Below are positions 1 to 20,827 of a stretch of 23,295 nucleotides of DNA, in pieces. Location: the IMG/VR virus record IMGVR_UViG_3300025728_000348, positions 1 to 23,295 of that record. One strand, 5' to 3'. Each line of letters begins with the position of its first letter. Within the stretch, counting starts at the first letter, position 1. The notes under the pieces were generated by a model. That model was not told the origin of the DNA. It saw only the letters and a list, made by a program, of their open reading frames with translations, and did no database searches. The translations under genes and the position numbers were made by a program. This DNA is from a virus.

Positions 1-1389
1 TTAGATATGTGGTGGTATTTTTCTAAATGCAGTCGGGGAATCTTCTCCTTGATAATGTTGTAATCGATAAGCTATCTCAAGTAGAGCAATTCGAGAAAAA
101 TATGCTGCATCAGCACACTCTTTTTCAAATGACTGCAAACGATCTACATGGTTACCATGCAAAATCTGTGAGCGTCCATAGTTATATAATTTTGCAATAA
201 CATCCCTTAACTTTATTTCTCTTTTATTTGTTTTAAGTATGTAATTTTCATCCACATCTAATAAGTGACAAATTAAATTCGTTATGCCAACTTTTTTCCC
301 TCCACAAGACAGTATATCAAGGCAAGTCCCAAGTTTTGCTAAAGCAATTGATTCGTTAGTTTCACGCTGGGCTTCAGCATACCATTCCAATGCAGTAGCC
401 CATCGGTTAGCAAGTTGAGGGTATTGATGAGTATCTGGTTGAGATAACCCAGAAAGAATAAATGCGAAACCATCGATAATATTTTTATATTCGTCTAAAT
501 CATCAAGAAAATCAGAACCATTCCTATGTGGTATTCTTTTCGATAAAGTGAATCCAGCAGTAGTTAAATAACCATCGCGGGATTTTATTATTTTATATGA
601 TATAGGTGGCTGTCTGTCTTCATAAAGTGTATTTTGATAAAAATAGTTCTTGTCACCAAATAGAGCTGATAATGCGTCCAAGGTTGTTTTACAGATTATC
701 TTGGATAGCTTTGATGATAATTCGCTCTCAATGTTATTTAATTTTATTGATACTACCGAGTTGCCTGTTTTAGTGAATTCATAGATATCTGATGCAAGTG
801 CGCTAATTGTTTCTTCTTTATTGTTATGTAAGTATTGAATTACATGCTCTTTCCATTTGTAATTTAATTCTTTCTGATTGTAGTGGTTGTTAAGTGTCTG
901 ATTATTAAATTCATTATTTTTAATCCAGTCTTCTCTGTTGTTAATTTCAACTGGACCAATCGTTATTGATCGATGGTGATGTAAAAAAACAGTATTTGCA
1001 GAATAGTGATGGGTGAGTTCTCTTGAGTTCAAGATTATCAGTTCTTCAATTCTTGTTTTTAGATTCTTCTCAATATCTCTCTTTACGTTTTCGGTGTCTG
1101 TATCAGTGTATTCATGGAGTTTGCCAGATGAAAAAAGATTAGCAATGGCATTTCTCATGAATGAATATATCTTTTTTAACTCAGTTTTATATATAGTTCT
1201 GTCTAGATTAGTGAAGATTAATTCGCTAAGCTCAAGCATTTGTATTTTTGCATCTTTGCTAAAGCTTACTTGGTAACCTTCGTCAGACGTAGTAAAATCG
1301 GGGAATGTCATTTCAGACCAGTTGAAATCTTTAGAATGGATTCTAACTAATTCTTTAGTTAGTTTGGTTAATATATCTTCTATGGTCAT
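1..1389 (-). CDS. Accessory protein with C-terminal HEPN-like domain (candidate abortive-infection RNase)
   Basis: A 462-residue protein that I do not recognise as a named family. Near its C-terminus is a helix around residues 346-360 (NESIALAKLGTCLDIL) and then R406-SQIL-H411, which fits the R-x4-6-H motif of HEPN ribonucleases and resembles the ApeA-type HEPN layout. The first 320 residues are polar, mixed helix and strand, with no signal peptide or membrane segment, and could be a sensor part. The gene starts one base after the integrase stop codon on the same strand, so it probably shares the cI-int lysogenic transcript and would be expressed in the lysogen. It is clearly more AT-rich than the phage core, a sign of separate acquisition. 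HEPN proteins in such positions are often anti-phage toxins; that role here is inference. The window begins at its stop codon. Confidence 0.75.
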   Translation of the reverse strand: MTIEDILTKLTKELVRIHSKDFNWSEMTFPDFTTSDEGYQVSFSKDAKIQMLELSELIFTNLDRTIYKTELKKIYSFMRNAIANLFSSGKLHEYTDTDTENVKRDIEKNLKTRIEELIILNSRELTHHYSANTVFLHHHRSITIGPVEINNREDWIKNNEFNNQTLNNHYNQKELNYKWKEHVIQYLHNNKEETISALASDIYEFTKTGNSVVSIKLNNIESELSSKLSKIICKTTLDALSALFGDKNYFYQNTLYEDRQPPISYKIIKSRDGYLTTAGFTLSKRIPHRNGSDFLDDLDEYKNIIDGFAFILSGLSQPDTHQYPQLANRWATALEWYAEAQRETNESIALAKLGTCLDILSCGGKKVGITNLICHLLDVDENYILKTNKREIKLRDVIAKLYNYGRSQILHGNHVDRLQSFEKECADAAYFSRIALLEIAYRLQHYQGEDSPTAFRKIPPHI

Positions 1390-4708: not shown

Positions 4709-4926
4709 TGAAAACCAGCCACTTAAAGCCTAACCAGCGGGTAATCATTACTCGCAAAGACGGCTCTCGGCCACCTCGCCTCGGTACCTTTTTACGCCGT
4801 GATGGGCGTATGGCTGTCTTTTATATCGATGATTTCATCGGCATTCGTGGAGAAGACGACAAGGGAATAACCACCATCTCCATCAACAGCAAAGATTTTG
4901 AAGTGATAGCGGAGGAAAAGCGCTAA
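4708..4926 (+). CDS. Small conserved early protein of unknown function
   Basis: A 72-residue protein that I do not recognise. The sequence (KPNQRVIITRKDGSRPPRLGTFLRRDGRMAVFYIDDFIGIRG) looks like a small beta-barrel, perhaps SH3-like, with a basic surface. Start and stop overlap both neighbours by one base, which strongly supports it as a translated gene of the early operon. Confidence 0.8.
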   Translation: MKTSHLKPNQRVIITRKDGSRPPRLGTFLRRDGRMAVFYIDDFIGIRGEDDKGITTISINSKDFEVIAEEKR

Positions 4927-8616: not shown

Positions 8617-9519
8617 ATGGATAAGGCCGTATCAATAGGTTGGTGGAATACAGGGTTATCCCCAGCAGTAAAGAGAGACCGCTCAACTAAGGATGAGTTA
8701 ACAATAGCCTTTGCCCTTATTATCGATATGTTGCTTACTCATCGCGTAGATGTTTTATGTCTTGGTGAGATATCGCCTTTAGATGTTGAGTTGTTTAGTT
8801 TGAGTTTTGCTAATAGTGATTTTTATATTTATGATGGAACATACACAGATGGAAATATAAAGCATGATATGTGTGTGTTTATTAATAAAAATAAATTCAC
8901 GTACATTGATAGTAAAAGTATTATCGAGCAAACATTGCTCGGTAAGATAAGAGCCGGTCAAGAAATCCAACTCATGCATAATGATAGTGGGGATTATATA
9001 TTTTTTTATATTTCTCACTGGCCAATGAGAGGAAACGACACCAATGAGGAAATGCCAAAAAGATATGAGCTTGGAAAAGCTTTGCGTGGAGCCCTCAATC
9101 GGTGTGTTGAAGATAAGTCAGGTAAATATTTTATTTTCTTAGGCGATTACAATGATGACCCATTTAATAAATCGCTTACTCATGCTCTTGGTGCCACAAG
9201 GGATAGAGATTTAGTTCTTAAAAATAGCGCTTTTCTATACAACCCATTCTGGAATTTTATGGGGGCATCAGTTAGCTTCCCATCAACTGACCACAAGTTA
9301 AGCACATATGGGACGTATTACTATAAAGGCGGATCAACTACTCGCTGGCATACTTTTGACCAAATCATGTTTTCGTCATCATTCCTATCCGGTGGGGATT
9401 GGAGTCTTTTGGAAGAAAAGGTTAAAATTATTAACGGTGAAGAGATAAAAGCGTTAGTCACAGGTTCTAAAACACACTTTGATCATTTGCCAGTTATTGC
9501 TGTGATAAAGAGAGGTTAA
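8617..9519 (+). CDS. Endonuclease/exonuclease/phosphatase (EEP) family accessory protein
   Basis: A 300-residue protein with the complete EEP/DNase I-like active site in order: W-N at residues 10-11 (SIGWWNTGL), metal-binding E51 (LCLGEIS), H134 (ISHWP), D177 and N179 (FLGDYNDDP), D248 (FDQIMFSS) and D289-H290 (FDHLPVIAV). It should therefore cut phosphodiester bonds of DNA, RNA or a signalling molecule; the substrate is not evident. No signal peptide or membrane segment. The gene is AT-rich, has its own promoter, and lies in the tum-cos slot where P2-family phages carry genes such as old and tin that exclude other phages. A partner gene follows after 4 bases. An anti-phage effector role is inferred. 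I do not recognise this pair as a named system. Confidence 0.88.
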   Translation: MDKAVSIGWWNTGLSPAVKRDRSTKDELTIAFALIIDMLLTHRVDVLCLGEISPLDVELFSLSFANSDFYIYDGTYTDGNIKHDMCVFINKNKFTYIDSKSIIEQTLLGKIRAGQEIQLMHNDSGDYIFFYISHWPMRGNDTNEEMPKRYELGKALRGALNRCVEDKSGKYFIFLGDYNDDPFNKSLTHALGATRDRDLVLKNSAFLYNPFWNFMGASVSFPSTDHKLSTYGTYYYKGGSTTRWHTFDQIMFSSSFLSGGDWSLLEEKVKIINGEEIKALVTGSKTHFDHLPVIAVIKRG

Positions 9520-9523
9520 TGTA

Positions 9524-9976
9524 ATGGATTTCAAAAATTCGCTGACCGCTGGCTTACAAGCAGCACGAAAAGCAAGAGATAACAAAGAAGAAATACTTGG
9601 TGTAATCAAAGATCTAGGCGACAGTATCGCAGATTACAGCGAAGGTCGTGTATCGCTGGAGATTACGAGCGAAAGAAAACTCGCGACTAATCAAACGGTT
9701 TTAACTGCCGCGGCAAGTGCATTTACAGGCGTTAACCCTTATATCGACTATAAAGCATTATCTCTCATTACAAGGAAAGACCAGGCTAAAGTTAAAGAGA
9801 TTATCGCTGAGTGGCGACTAAATGAATCGGATGGCTATCCATGTGTTATTTCGTATGGCAAGGAAGATGTTAACTGTAGAAATAAAGACATGTTAGTCAA
9901 AGCTTTAAACGAGCTTATGTCCAATGCCAGTACTGGAGAAGTGCTCTTGAAATTAATGAACATTGAAGAAGCATGA
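9524..9976 (+). CDS. Partner of the EEP protein, unknown function
   Basis: A 150-residue protein that I do not recognise. The first 40 residues are helical and charged (KNSLTAGLQAARKARDNKEE, then ILGVIKDLGDSIADYSEGRV); residues 45-65 look like strands; residues 80-100 and the last 30 are helices (DMLVKALNELMSNASTGEVL). No catalytic motif, signal or membrane segment is visible. The start lies 4 bases after the EEP stop codon behind GAGAGG, so the two genes are almost certainly cotranscribed and their products may form a complex, for example nuclease and regulator, sensor or immunity protein. Base composition is less AT-rich than the nuclease gene. Confidence 0.85.
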   Translation: MDFKNSLTAGLQAARKARDNKEEILGVIKDLGDSIADYSEGRVSLEITSERKLATNQTVLTAAASAFTGVNPYIDYKALSLITRKDQAKVKEIIAEWRLNESDGYPCVISYGKEDVNCRNKDMLVKALNELMSNASTGEVLLKLMNIEEA

Positions 9977-9991
9977 TTTTTAGCGGACGGA

Positions 9992-10210
9992 CTAATAAGT
10001 TACTTCGATGATGTTTAGGTTATCAACTGTAGCGTATATTTGAAAAACATAACTATCATCGGCAAAGTTTATACTGGTGATAGTTATATCATTTCCTGTG
10101 ATTTTTCCGTTTCTTAGCTGTGCATGCATCAGGTGCATTGTTTCGCATGCTTCAGGATTGCCCTTTGTGGGTGGGCGTCGCCAGATCTGGCGTGGGTCCG
10201 GAGCTGTCAT
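9992..10210 (-). CDS. Doubtful small leftward ORF beside cos
   Basis: An open frame of 72 codons running toward the accessory pair. The C-terminal 45 residues (NGKITGNDITITSINFADDS and DNLNIIEVTY) read like real beta-rich protein, while the N-terminal part crosses the conserved cos-proximal DNA. It may be a small accessory gene or the remnant of one, starting at an internal Met such as residue 25 or 28. P2 old and tin are also transcribed leftward from this side, so the direction is plausible. No clear ribosome site was seen. Confidence 0.35.
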   Translation of the reverse strand: MTAPDPRQIWRRPPTKGNPEACETMHLMHAQLRNGKITGNDITITSINFADDSYVFQIYATVDNLNIIEVTY

Positions 10211-18242: not shown

Positions 18243-18672
18243 CGCCGTGCCGCAACTGAAAAACAACCCGGATATGCTGCGCCTTTTCGCTGATAACGGG
18301 CATACCGATTCACGACTCGCGAGCTCGCTGTCATTTGAAAAGGTGTATGTGCTGAACGTAGTGGTGACCGACTTTACCGGCGACCTTGATTTGATATTCG
18401 TGCCGGTGCAGGCGTGGCTGCGTGAACATCAGCCGGACATCATGACCACCGACGACGGGCGGGATAAAGGCTTTACCTGGATTATTGATATCAATAACGA
18501 CGATTCGCTCGATATCAGTATCAGCCTGAGACTGACCGAGCGCACGCTCGTCAAAGAAGTCGACGGGGCGCTGCACGTCAGCTATGCCCCTGAGCCGCCC
18601 CTGCCTGAACCGGTGACGCGCCCGATGGAGTTATACGTTAACGGCGAACTGGTGAGTAAGTGGGATGAGTGA
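18205..18672 (+). CDS. R: Tail completion protein gpR
   Basis: A 155-residue protein, the same length as P2 R, which terminates and stabilises the contractile tail at the head side. Typical stretches: LRKALISAVPQLKNNPDMLR, FVPVQAWLREHQPDIM, FTWIIDINNDDSLDISI, and the C-terminal ELYVNGELVSKWDE. The ATG at 18205 lies inside lysC; a longer frame from 18139 is open but would not match P2. Confidence 0.96.
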   Translation: MQKHKSLRKALISAVPQLKNNPDMLRLFADNGHTDSRLASSLSFEKVYVLNVVVTDFTGDLDLIFVPVQAWLREHQPDIMTTDDGRDKGFTWIIDINNDDSLDISISLRLTERTLVKEVDGALHVSYAPEPPLPEPVTRPMELYVNGELVSKWDE

Positions 18673-19120
18673 ATTAACCGCACTGCAGGAACGTCTTGCC
18701 GGTCTGATTGCCAGCCTGTCACCGGCGGCGCGCCGGAAAATGGCGGCTGACATTGCAAAGCGGCTGCGCACCAGTCAGCAACGGCGTATTAAGCAACAGC
18801 TGACCCCCGACGGCACCCCGTATGTCGCCCGAAAACGCCAGCCGGTGCGGAATAAGAAAGGCCGTATTAAGCGTGAGATGTTTTCCAAACTGCGAACCAA
18901 TCGCTATATGAAAGCCAAAGCCACCGACAGTGCGGCGGTGGTGGAGTTTACCGGCAAGGTGCAGCGCATGGCGCAGGTGCATCAGTACGGCCTTAAAGAC
19001 AGGCCAAATCGTAACAGTCTGGGTGTGAAGTACGAGGCTCGCCAATTGCTTGGCTTTTCTTCCTCAGATCTACAAAAAATAGAGATACTAATTATGGATT
19101 CTTTGAGCCGGAACCATTGA
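18665..19120 (+). CDS. S: Tail completion protein gpS
   Basis: A 151-residue basic protein (P2 S has 150) needed for correct tail length and head-tail joining. Conserved parts are LTALQERLAGLIASLSPAAR, RRIKQQLTPDGTPYVARKRQ, and VHQYGLKDRP...GVKYEARQLLGF. The last 20 or so codons (after about 19045) are markedly AT-rich and read SSSDLQKIEILIMDSLSRNH, so the 3' end seems to have been replaced when the accessory gene beside it was acquired. Overlaps R by eight bases. Confidence 0.95.
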   Translation: MSELTALQERLAGLIASLSPAARRKMAADIAKRLRTSQQRRIKQQLTPDGTPYVARKRQPVRNKKGRIKREMFSKLRTNRYMKAKATDSAAVVEFTGKVQRMAQVHQYGLKDRPNRNSLGVKYEARQLLGFSSSDLQKIEILIMDSLSRNH

Positions 19121-19174
19121 CTTTAGTTACACCGAGAATCATTATGCACCTTATCGATAGAGGTGGACTGGTGT

Positions 19175-20047
19175 CTAGGTGGGGTTACCCACTGAGTTGG
19201 GTTCGATTCCCTGACCTCGTACCCTCCCCCTGGATATCTTTATTGTTGAGTCCTCCGCTTTCATCTCAGTTTTTATCTGCTCGTCACAAATTAAATAATC
19301 TAGATTATTAGCCTTTATAAGATGTTGAACGTTGATATTTGTTGCGTTTAGCAAGTTTGCATTCCGCATGTTAGCGCCTTCATAGGTAACGGATTTAAAG
19401 TCACACCCTTTTAAAAGGCAACTTTTCATGTCGCTATTTGTAAAAAAACCGCCCTCGAGACTACAGTTTTCAAAAATAACATTTTGAAATTGAACATTAA
19501 ATGCCTTTATGTTTTTTAGCTTGCAGTTTGTGAATTTAACGGTCTTCATTCTGTTGTTTGTAATATTCAGGGCTTGAATTGTGCAATTTTCGAAAGAGCA
19601 TTCTCTGATGTAGGAGTCGCTCATGTTTAAACCGGTTAAATCAGCATCTTTAAATTTAAGGTATTTGATAGTGGACATCTTATCAAGCTCGATTCTAGGA
19701 ACTTGAATGTTATATATGCCTTTGGAATTTAGCTGGCGTATTATTTTCATTTTCATAATATTCGATTCGGGTGACGAATGTTTTGCTAGATTTTCAAGAT
19801 CTTCAATAAGATCGCGAATATCGTCGTTGTTTTGCCTTTTATTTTCAAAATAATAAAGTATCACACCAAGAACAAGGAAATCTAAAATTGATGAATTTGC
19901 ATTAACAAGGAAGTTCTCCATAAACGTGGAATTATAGTTGCCTGTATAAAGAGACAGGCTAACTATGAACCCTGAATATAGAAAAAAGACGCCAATTATA
20001 TATTTCATCTTTTTAATTGTGCGCCAGAATGATGACCATGCTTTCAT
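19175..20047 (-). CDS. Membrane-anchored pentapeptide-repeat protein (moron)
   Basis: A 290-residue protein on the strand opposite to the late genes. Two hydrophobic helices lie at about residues 15-35 (YIIGVFFLYSGFIVSLSLY) and 52-67 (SILDFLVLGVILYYF), then a charged linker, then pentapeptide-type repeats over about residues 125-240 (LKFKDADLTGLNMSDSYIRE, VIFENCSLEGGFFTNSDM, CDFKSVTYEGANMRNANLLN), which form a right-handed beta helix facing the cytoplasm. The gene is strongly AT-rich and interrupts the S-V junction, a known accessory site in P2-like phages. Function unknown; superinfection exclusion or defence is a plausible guess. The last 20 residues (RGRVRGQGIEPNSVGNPT) read through a tRNA-like T-arm sequence and look like non-native extension. 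Confidence 0.85.
   Translation of the reverse strand: MKAWSSFWRTIKKMKYIIGVFFLYSGFIVSLSLYTGNYNSTFMENFLVNANSSILDFLVLGVILYYFENKRQNNDDIRDLIEDLENLAKHSSPESNIMKMKIIRQLNSKGIYNIQVPRIELDKMSTIKYLKFKDADLTGLNMSDSYIRECSFENCTIQALNITNNRMKTVKFTNCKLKNIKAFNVQFQNVIFENCSLEGGFFTNSDMKSCLLKGCDFKSVTYEGANMRNANLLNATNINVQHLIKANNLDYLICDEQIKTEMKAEDSTIKISRGRVRGQGIEPNSVGNPT
19176..19225 (+). other. Possible tRNA 3'-half-like fragment
   Basis: GTGGG-GTTA-CCCAC (19179-19192) could be a variable arm, and GGGTTCGATTCCC (19199-19211) has the T-loop consensus with a GGG/CCC stem. No matching acceptor strand, anticodon arm or D arm is visible, so it is at best a remnant, perhaps left by an integration or recombination event. Confidence 0.25.
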
Positions 20048-20121
20048 TATTACCTACCATATGTTTCGTGTGGTTTTTGAATGAGTTAGACGTTCAAATG
20101 ATACATGAATGAATGCCTCAT

Positions 20122-20139
20122 TGTGTAGACGATCATACA
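20122..20139. promoter_or_regulatory. Late-activator site TGT-N12-ACA in the S-V gap
   Basis: TGT at 20122-20124 and ACA at 20137-20139 match the Ogr/B (Delta) late-activator consensus. It should belong to the V promoter. However, the usual -55 position would put the V start site at about 20186, on the V start codon itself, while in the other direction it would give a start near 20076, 28 bases ahead of the pentapeptide gene. The orientation of the promoter is therefore open. Confidence 0.6.
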
Positions 20140-20185
20140 GTCGAATCGTTTTGTTCAGATGCTTAACAAGAGGCATTCTTTGCAA

Positions 20186-20827
20186 ATGAATACACTAAAT
20201 AGCATACAAGAACTTGCGCGCGCGATACGTAACCTCATCCGCTCGGGTGTGGTGACTGAGGTCGACACGGCCGAAGGGCTTTGTCGCGTGCAAAGCGGCG
20301 GCATCCAGACAACCTGGCTGAACTGGCTTACCACCCGCGCCGGTCGTTCTCGGACGTGGTGGGCTCCTTCGGTGGGTGAGCAGGTGTTGCTGCTGGCGAT
20401 TGGCGGCGAGCTCGACACCGCTTTCGTGTTGCCGGGCATTTTCTCTGACGATAATCCCGCCCCGTCGGCCTCGACGGATGCGTGGCATGTGACGTTCCCC
20501 GATGGCGCGGTTATCGAGTACGAGCCCGAGACAAGCGAGCTGACGGTCAGTGGCATCAAAACCGCCAACATTACCGCATCGGAATCCATCACGGCAACGG
20601 TGCCAATGGTGCTGGTGAAAGCCGCGCAGCGCATCACCCTCGACACTCCCGAGGTGGTGTGTACCAACAAGCTAACGACGGCGACGCTGGAGGTGCAGAA
20701 AGGCGGCACTATGAGCGGTGATATCAAGCACAGCGGCGGCAAGTTCACCTCAAACGGCGTGCAGGTTGATGACCATGACCACGGCGGCGTTCAAAGAGGC
20801 GGAAGCCGTACGGAGGGAACTCAATGA
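20186..20827 (+). CDS. V: Baseplate spike protein gpV
   Basis: A 213-residue central spike that pierces the outer membrane at injection. The N-terminal OB-fold (MNTLNSIQELARAIRNLIRS, TTRAGRSRTWWAPSVGEQVL, LAIGGELDTAFVLPGIFSDD) and the beta-helical stem (FPDGAVIEYEPETSELTVSG, LVKAAQRITLDTPEVVCTNK) match P2 V (211 residues). The C-terminal DDHDHGGVQRGG contains the H-x-H iron-binding tip motif. I chose ATG 20186 by P2 homology; its ribosome site AAGAGG is rather far (12 bases), and ATG 20159 would add nine unlike residues. Confidence 0.96.
   Translation: MNTLNSIQELARAIRNLIRSGVVTEVDTAEGLCRVQSGGIQTTWLNWLTTRAGRSRTWWAPSVGEQVLLLAIGGELDTAFVLPGIFSDDNPAPSASTDAWHVTFPDGAVIEYEPETSELTVSGIKTANITASESITATVPMVLVKAAQRITLDTPEVVCTNKLTTATLEVQKGGTMSGDIKHSGGKFTSNGVQVDDHDHGGVQRGGSRTEGTQ

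Follow-up and report, generated by a model that had tools for sequence, protein, structure and literature searches.

The window, i.e., the whole 23,295-nucleotide stretch of viral record IMGVR_UViG_3300025728_000348, contains between genes S (18665-19120) and V (20159-20827) only a pentapeptide-repeat ORF and a tRNA-like RNA. The ORF (19175..20047, minus strand) is encoded against both S and V, begins with ATG with AGGT ~6 nt upstream, and encodes 290 aa as it stands, while the conserved protein is of ~278 aa and ends near 19214. The GC content of the gene was 33-35% as compared to 55-60% in its flanks, and the original prediction of an AT-rich gene running opposite to late transcription was confirmed. 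A promoter-like sequence TACACA-18-TATCAT for the protein gene was located at 20098..20127 (minus strand), and most of it is conserved in the E. coli relative TUM14697. The product matched Pfam Pentapeptide_4 (1.4e-16, above gathering) and Pentapeptide (2.7e-9), and phrog_12514, a PHROG with function not assigned, covered nearly the full ORF length (1.5e-128). In a comparison with phage vB_EcoM-613R3, whose protein is 81% identical, dN was 0.11 and dS was 1.25, which indicated purifying selection on the protein.

The window protein folded from its single sequence gave a pLDDT of 43, and AlphaFold2 with a 10-sequence alignment gave 83.8. The latter model contains helices at residues 2-35, 40-88 and 93-108, followed by a beta-solenoid spanning ~118-233 (pLDDT ~90-97) and a C-terminal helix. 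Transmembrane (TM) helix 1 (19946..20005, minus strand; ~residues 15-34), placed from the model helix 2-35 and the sequence, follows basic residues that point to an N-in orientation. TM helix 2 (19844..19891, minus strand; ~residues 53-68) runs on as a presumed cytoplasmic helix to residue 88, and the alignment and model place the family motif Y...F..N.LV......D in its region. No recognisable channel signature was found in the two-TM (2TM) segment. The solenoid (19343..19696, minus strand; ~residues 118-235 from Pfam, AlphaFold2 and Foldseek) has the features of pentapeptide repeats folded as a right-handed quadrilateral beta-helix, and the top Foldseek matches of the AlphaFold2 model were pentapeptide solenoids (MfpA, AlbG, Qnr and designed ones). 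Because both the N-terminus and a stretch after TM2 are basic, the solenoid is presumed to lie on the cytoplasmic side of the membrane. Thus, the two hydrophobic N-terminal helices and the pentapeptide repeats read earlier from the letters alone are upheld by Pfam, PHROG and AlphaFold2, and the repeat helix is present in the predicted structure, again on the presumed cytoplasmic side. The accompanying idea of nucleic-acid mimicry was not supported, as the solenoid region was basic, with a net charge (not a surface charge) of +3 to +9, in 13/13 relatives computed.

Comparison of the DNA beyond the gene 3' end revealed a conserved GGTTCGATTCCC, the T-arm of a tRNA-like element, which was found on the opposite strand at the 3' end of the protein gene even in distant relatives. 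In the window, this element is of 60 nt (19160..19219, plus strand), convergent with the ORF and overlapping its 3' end. On the same plus strand, the acceptor-like stem has the 5' strand GAGGU (19160..19164) pairing with ACCUC (19214-19218), the D-like hairpin is GAC-UGGU-GUC (19166..19175), a covarying hairpin GUGGG-GUUA-CCCAC (19179..19192) without a 7-nt anticodon loop takes the anticodon-arm place, and the T-arm is GGG-UUCGAUU-CCC (19199..19211), with a loop invariant across the members aligned. Across the loci, the acceptor-like stem occurs as GAGGU:ACCUC, AACUG:CAGUU, AACGG:CCGUU or GAG-GC:GCCUC with a bulged U, and the D-like hairpin as GAC-UGGU-GUC or GC-UGGU-GC. The number of hairpins at the anticodon-arm place ranges from one to three, some of them having GNRA loops, and the discriminator place is filled by an unpaired A (or G, U). 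The T-loop and the D-like UGGU, i.e., the tRNA elbow, are the best-conserved parts. Thus, the element has the tRNA-like UUCRAUU T-loop, the D-loop-like GG and a closing acceptor-like stem, and it lacks the decoding cloverleaf of a tRNA, a tetraloop hairpin replacing the anticodon arm. ARAGORN called no tRNA at the element, no Rfam family matched it at the gathering score, and single-sequence folding of the window RNA was no better than shuffles (z about -0.1 to -0.4). YrlA (bacterial Y RNA), the tRNA-like domain of tmRNA and mascRNA likewise combine a T-arm with a D-like loop and lack an anticodon arm that decodes, mascRNA being about the same length as the 60-nt element. The cassette RNA differs from these tRNA mimics in having no Rfam match at gathering and in its linkage to a membrane protein gene.

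The orthologues end in ...RG followed by a stop codon, which lies inside the 3' half of the tRNA-like RNA. At this position (19211..19213, minus strand), the relatives have TAG and the window has CAG, so the window ORF extends by 12 codons, antisense through the RNA gene, to 19175. As judged from the aligned sequences, these final 12 codons (QGIEPNSVGNPT) are outside the protein family and are a read-through into the RNA gene. The acceptor-like pairs of the window RNA are intact despite the CAG. In locus L021, tandem copies of the RNA 3' end (CGATTCCCTAACCT units) follow immediately after the protein stop at 4922, and the stop codon therefore falls outside the RNA. Separately, a leader upstream of the RNA in L010 and L022 (e.g., ACGCCAGTC...GACTGGCGT), and also in L020, was found to be complementary to the D-like hairpin, making an alternative precursor fold possible.

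The RNA has a promoter-like sequence of its own, TTGACT-17-CATTAT at 19117..19145 (plus strand), which occurs at the same place in the P2-type relatives. The P2-type loci contain TTGACT (TTGACA in L010) 17 nt before a -10-like hexamer that ends 13-15 nt from the RNA, and most of the non-P2 loci have a -10-like hexamer ending 8 nt upstream of the RNA; for some loci the agreement with a -10 is weak. In a scan of the window, promoter-like sites were no more numerous than in shuffles.

P2-like phages have three moron regions, and the S-V junction is one of them, orf30 (PMC6823313; PMC3091744). It behaves as a non-essential and variable cargo site. The pentapeptide gene occupies it in the E. coli prophages TUM14697 and JKHS016; SF-468 has a HIT-domain gene with a hypothetical, ESBLEC_MG48 has two hypotheticals, and in D3 the junction is empty, with just 68 bp and no tRNA-like RNA. 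The cargo genes were oriented against S and V in every cargo case examined. The placement of the gene as a moron at this accessory site was thus as originally predicted, and other P2-like phages and prophages also have homologues between S and V. The full-length homologue URE76610.1 of phage vB_EcoM-613R3 has both the S-V site and the convergent RNA element in common with the window. The gene is rare in E. coli, with a close copy in 13/5,426 genomes and a divergent copy in 4/5,426, and three further viral contigs contain protein copies that are 55-62% identical. RefSeq lists the P2-like prophage homologues as 'pentapeptide repeat-containing protein'. The P2-like homologues are annotated as a single protein with no assigned function or as YjcF, and the RNA was not annotated in any homologue record examined. 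Two other cargoes also run opposite to S and V: in L011 (4366-5485, minus strand) a HIT-domain protein is accompanied by a hypothetical one, and in L012 (4343-5277, minus strand) there is a two-gene hypothetical operon. Both are candidates for additional moron functions at this hotspot.

Other accessory genes were noticed elsewhere in the window. Between gpA and gpQ, at the P2 old/tin hotspot, an AT-rich gene at 8617-9519 (plus strand) encodes an Exo_endo_phos_3 family protein (Pfam 9.9e-15) and is directly followed by an AT-rich gene for a small protein of phrog_10179 (9524-9976, plus strand). This pair had no PADLOC match and is therefore a candidate for an undescribed defence pair. A 72-aa ORF of phrog_17882, with no assigned function, lies between the pair and gpQ (9992-10210, minus strand). 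Adjoining the integrase, an AT-rich accessory ORF of 462 aa (1-1389, minus strand) belongs to phrog_38039, also with no assigned function; its C-terminal part has RSQILHGNH, which resembles the HEPN R-4x-H motif, and no Pfam or PADLOC match was obtained for it.

Homologues of the pentapeptide protein with ~22-30% identity were found on small plasmids of Psychrobacter and Acinetobacter pittii and in Variovorax, Uliginosibacterium, Comamonas, Synechococcus and a cyanobacterial MAG. In the alignment, they keep the same plan of TM1, Y...F..N.LV......D, TM2, acidic/basic residues, helix and solenoid. Several have defence-like neighbours: in Variovorax (L014, 1808-4501, plus strand) the pentapeptide gene is immediately preceded by genes for a D12 (type II) methyltransferase, a DUF2726 protein and an AbiZ-like DUF6161 protein, the A. 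pittii plasmid has an Mrr-type restriction endonuclease and RelE/NadS, and a Psychrobacter plasmid has a SinI restriction-modification system. In L020 the homologue sits between SRAP and umuDC-type genes, and some chromosomal homologues stand singly among ordinary housekeeping genes. The Variovorax cluster adjoins a DNA polymerase III alpha gene. Hence, the homologues are not limited to metabolic contexts, a distribution that would have spoken against the earlier reading, but occur on plasmids and beside restriction and Abi genes. No members other than the known ones were found in 401 genomes of the Variovorax family and 369 of its class, or in 300 Uliginosibacterium-order, 244 cyanobacterial-phylum and 100 Anaerolineae-class genomes, which indicates that the family is rare and sporadic. 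Two viral scans, one using the non-P2 protein alignment and the other the non-P2 RNA pattern, gave no matches.

The tRNA-like RNA was present at the 3' end of the protein gene in 16/16 close-homologue loci outside the window, a count that does not represent 16 independent events since the loci are related and four are near-identical P2-type copies. These loci come from P2-like phages, Moraxellaceae plasmids, Burkholderiales, Uliginosibacterium and cyanobacteria, with protein identity down to ~22%, and in all 16 the T-arm motif lies on the opposite strand between -25 and +60 nt from the stop codon. Among 430 ORFs of at least 100 aa (21 loci, 185 kb), a convergent motif was found at the end of 16, every one the pentapeptide gene. 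Elsewhere in these loci the motif was at one other ORF end, on the same strand, and 16 of its 18 copies were at pentapeptide genes. The P2-type RNA pattern searched without the protein gave 5 matches in 2.9 million viral contigs, exactly the five that carry the protein gene. Similarly, BLAST with the RNA region hit 13/5,426 E. coli genomes, the same 13 strains that have the close protein gene. A looser pattern (CTGGYGY...GGTTCGATTCC) returned many ordinary phage tRNAs and no further member among the matches listed from viral contigs. The pairing of the RNA and protein genes in this protein clade is therefore well supported. A more distant 2TM pentapeptide protein from Anaerolineae (L019) had no such RNA at its locus, and so a membrane protein of such a kind can exist alone.

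The structure of the RNA is conserved. The eight non-P2 elements were 92.0% paired as against 83.7% for shuffles and 37-58% for slid versions, and the seven P2-type elements 88.7% as against 44-56% for slid versions, with the caveat that structures drawn from the same sequences are favoured over slid ones and that kinship inflates the shuffle test. The central hairpin varies in sequence and stays paired, and six base pairs of the non-P2 set have changed on both sides; such two-sided changes are the stronger part of the covariation evidence. The RNA was 88-93% conserved across the compared loci where the CDS was 64-80% (at the nucleotide level, 88% vs 64% between the window and L021, and 93% vs 65% between L010 and L022). 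The convergent overlap with the ORF is usually 3-9 nt, is 3-31 nt in most loci, and does not exist in L015 and L021, where the RNA is ~20 nt beyond the protein stop codon; coding overlap was therefore rejected as the cause of RNA conservation. The RNA and protein distances were correlated (Mantel r 0.86), as is expected with co-inheritance. The 14-pair covariance model R1 of the non-P2 elements was weak, finding P2-type elements at E 0.02-0.9 with ordinary tRNAs equal, so the homology of the P2 and non-P2 RNA types rests mainly on position and the T-arm. Integron attC sites were also considered, as the non-P2 elements start with AAC and end with GTT like attC core sites, and were rejected by inspection: the P2-type elements have GAGGU/ACCUC, and the invariant part is the T-arm.

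This conserved opposite-strand RNA had been missed in the original prediction, and it turns what was taken for one moron protein into a protein-RNA pair. The locus is better described as a protein and tRNA-like RNA cassette, apparently new in kind, with a putative function. The nearest known systems were compared. In Hailong, the HalA membrane effector is blocked by HalB-made oligo-dA, as summarised in PMC13275509. The window protein resembles HalA as a membrane protein with pentapeptide-type repeats, and restraint by a nucleic acid is the proposed analogue. The HalA model, however, matched the repeats only (46.1 bits against a cut-off of 250), HalA was absent among the best 50 Foldseek matches listed, no HalB nucleotidyltransferase is adjacent, and the nucleic acid here is a genome-encoded RNA instead of a synthesised DNA. 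Membership was rejected on the absence of HalB and a HalA score far under the cut-off. The type III toxin-antitoxin systems (ToxIN, CptIN, TenpIN) and AbiF are similar in combining a protein with a small structured RNA on mobile elements in an anti-phage context. They differ in having an RNase toxin where a membrane solenoid protein is found here, with no domain of the ToxN or AbiF kind, and the type III RNAs are upstream co-transcribed tandem repeats, unlike the single convergent tRNA-like RNA at the 3' end. With neither an endoRNase nor an upstream repeat RNA, type III membership was also rejected. No PADLOC match to a known defence family was obtained for the window protein, and searches of the open-licence literature gave no report of pentapeptide proteins being associated with a tRNA-like RNA. 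The presence of the RNA wherever close relatives of the protein were found suggests a protein-RNA system of a kind not previously described.

Both components, their constant pairing in the clade, the conserved RNA structure and the carriage on mobile or accessory DNA were computed directly. The reading we prefer, to which we give a probability of roughly 40%, is that of a two-part accessory cassette whose RNA holds a cytoplasm-facing 2TM pentapeptide membrane effector in check. The non-decoding tRNA-like small RNA would be transcribed from its own promoter, bind the net-basic beta-solenoid and the linker, and keep the membrane part inactive. Infection would strip or alter the RNA through host transcription shut-off, RNA degradation or disturbed tRNA processing, and the freed 2TM part would damage the membrane so that infection aborts. 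In P2 prophages, the RNA runs along late transcription and the protein gene against it, and read-through upon induction should raise both the RNA and the antisense to the protein mRNA, which may shield the resident phage's own lytic cycle. The defence-like neighbours, the promoter-like sequence of the RNA and the net-basic solenoid count in favour of such restraint, and an anti-phage role of the cassette is probable. A toxin restrained by an RNA has precedent in type III toxin-antitoxin systems and AbiF (PMC12373285), and a membrane effector blocked by a nucleic acid in Hailong, as cited in PMC13275509, each being a precedent for one half of the gating idea. The more specific proposal of RNA-gated membrane immunity, with the tRNA mimic as the guarded molecule and phage attack on host tRNA or transcription opening the 2TM effector and killing the cell, is tentative and on balance doubtful.

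The main rival to the inhibitor reading is that the pair is real and the RNA works as a sensor or activator. Here an imitation of tRNA would be cut or modified by phage or stress enzymes and the altered RNA would activate the protein, or, in a variant, the RNA would recruit a tRNA-binding factor to the membrane. The strongest conservation being at the T-loop and D-like UGGU agrees with this, since the tRNA elbow is described as a recognition surface in PMC4810234, as does an RNA conservation exceeding the need of coding overlap; an additional partner or trigger would be required, and we hold this rival to be rather unlikely. Less likely still is a single-protein moron for superinfection exclusion or stress, with the RNA merely a convergent antisense or 3'-end element limiting expression of the protein gene. 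Prophages often use antisense control, and the 3-31 nt overlap in most loci fits it, but such control needs no conserved tRNA-like fold with compensatory changes, and would not account for an RNA lying past the stop codon in L015 and L021. The nucleic-acid mimic of the original prediction, blocking incoming phage DNA or acting on gyrase-like targets, is improbable. Its appeal lies in a beta-solenoid fold nearest to MfpA, AlbG and Qnr. Qnr and MfpA are acidic, gyrase-targeting pentapeptide proteins; the window protein differs in its two TM helices, and instead of an acidic DNA-like surface a positive net charge (net charge only) was computed for the solenoid region of every member analysed. All the curated-family scores were far below the cut-offs, no Qnr or MfpA model reached its own, and mimicry would leave the RNA unexplained. 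Finally, tRNA genes are frequent integration sites of mobile elements, and such elements often bear tRNA 3' ends, but a functionless tRNA gene fragment left by integration and carried by the cassette is the least probable reading and already largely excluded, as ARAGORN calls no tRNA, both halves are present with covarying stems and higher conservation than the CDS, and the same RNA occurs in phages, plasmids and chromosomes while the empty S-V site is without it.

If the preferred reading of an RNA-restrained membrane effector is true, the locus would represent a protein-RNA cassette with a layout unlike those known for toxin-antitoxin systems and CBASS/Hailong, one that partners a tRNA mimic with a membrane protein. 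Its range takes in enterobacterial phages, Moraxellaceae plasmids, Burkholderiales and their relatives, and cyanobacteria. ORF-only annotation of phage morons can overlook such RNA partners. The finding would yield an undescribed RNA family and a role for one clade of membrane pentapeptide proteins, and would connect abortive infection to the state of a tRNA-like RNA in a way that can be tested.
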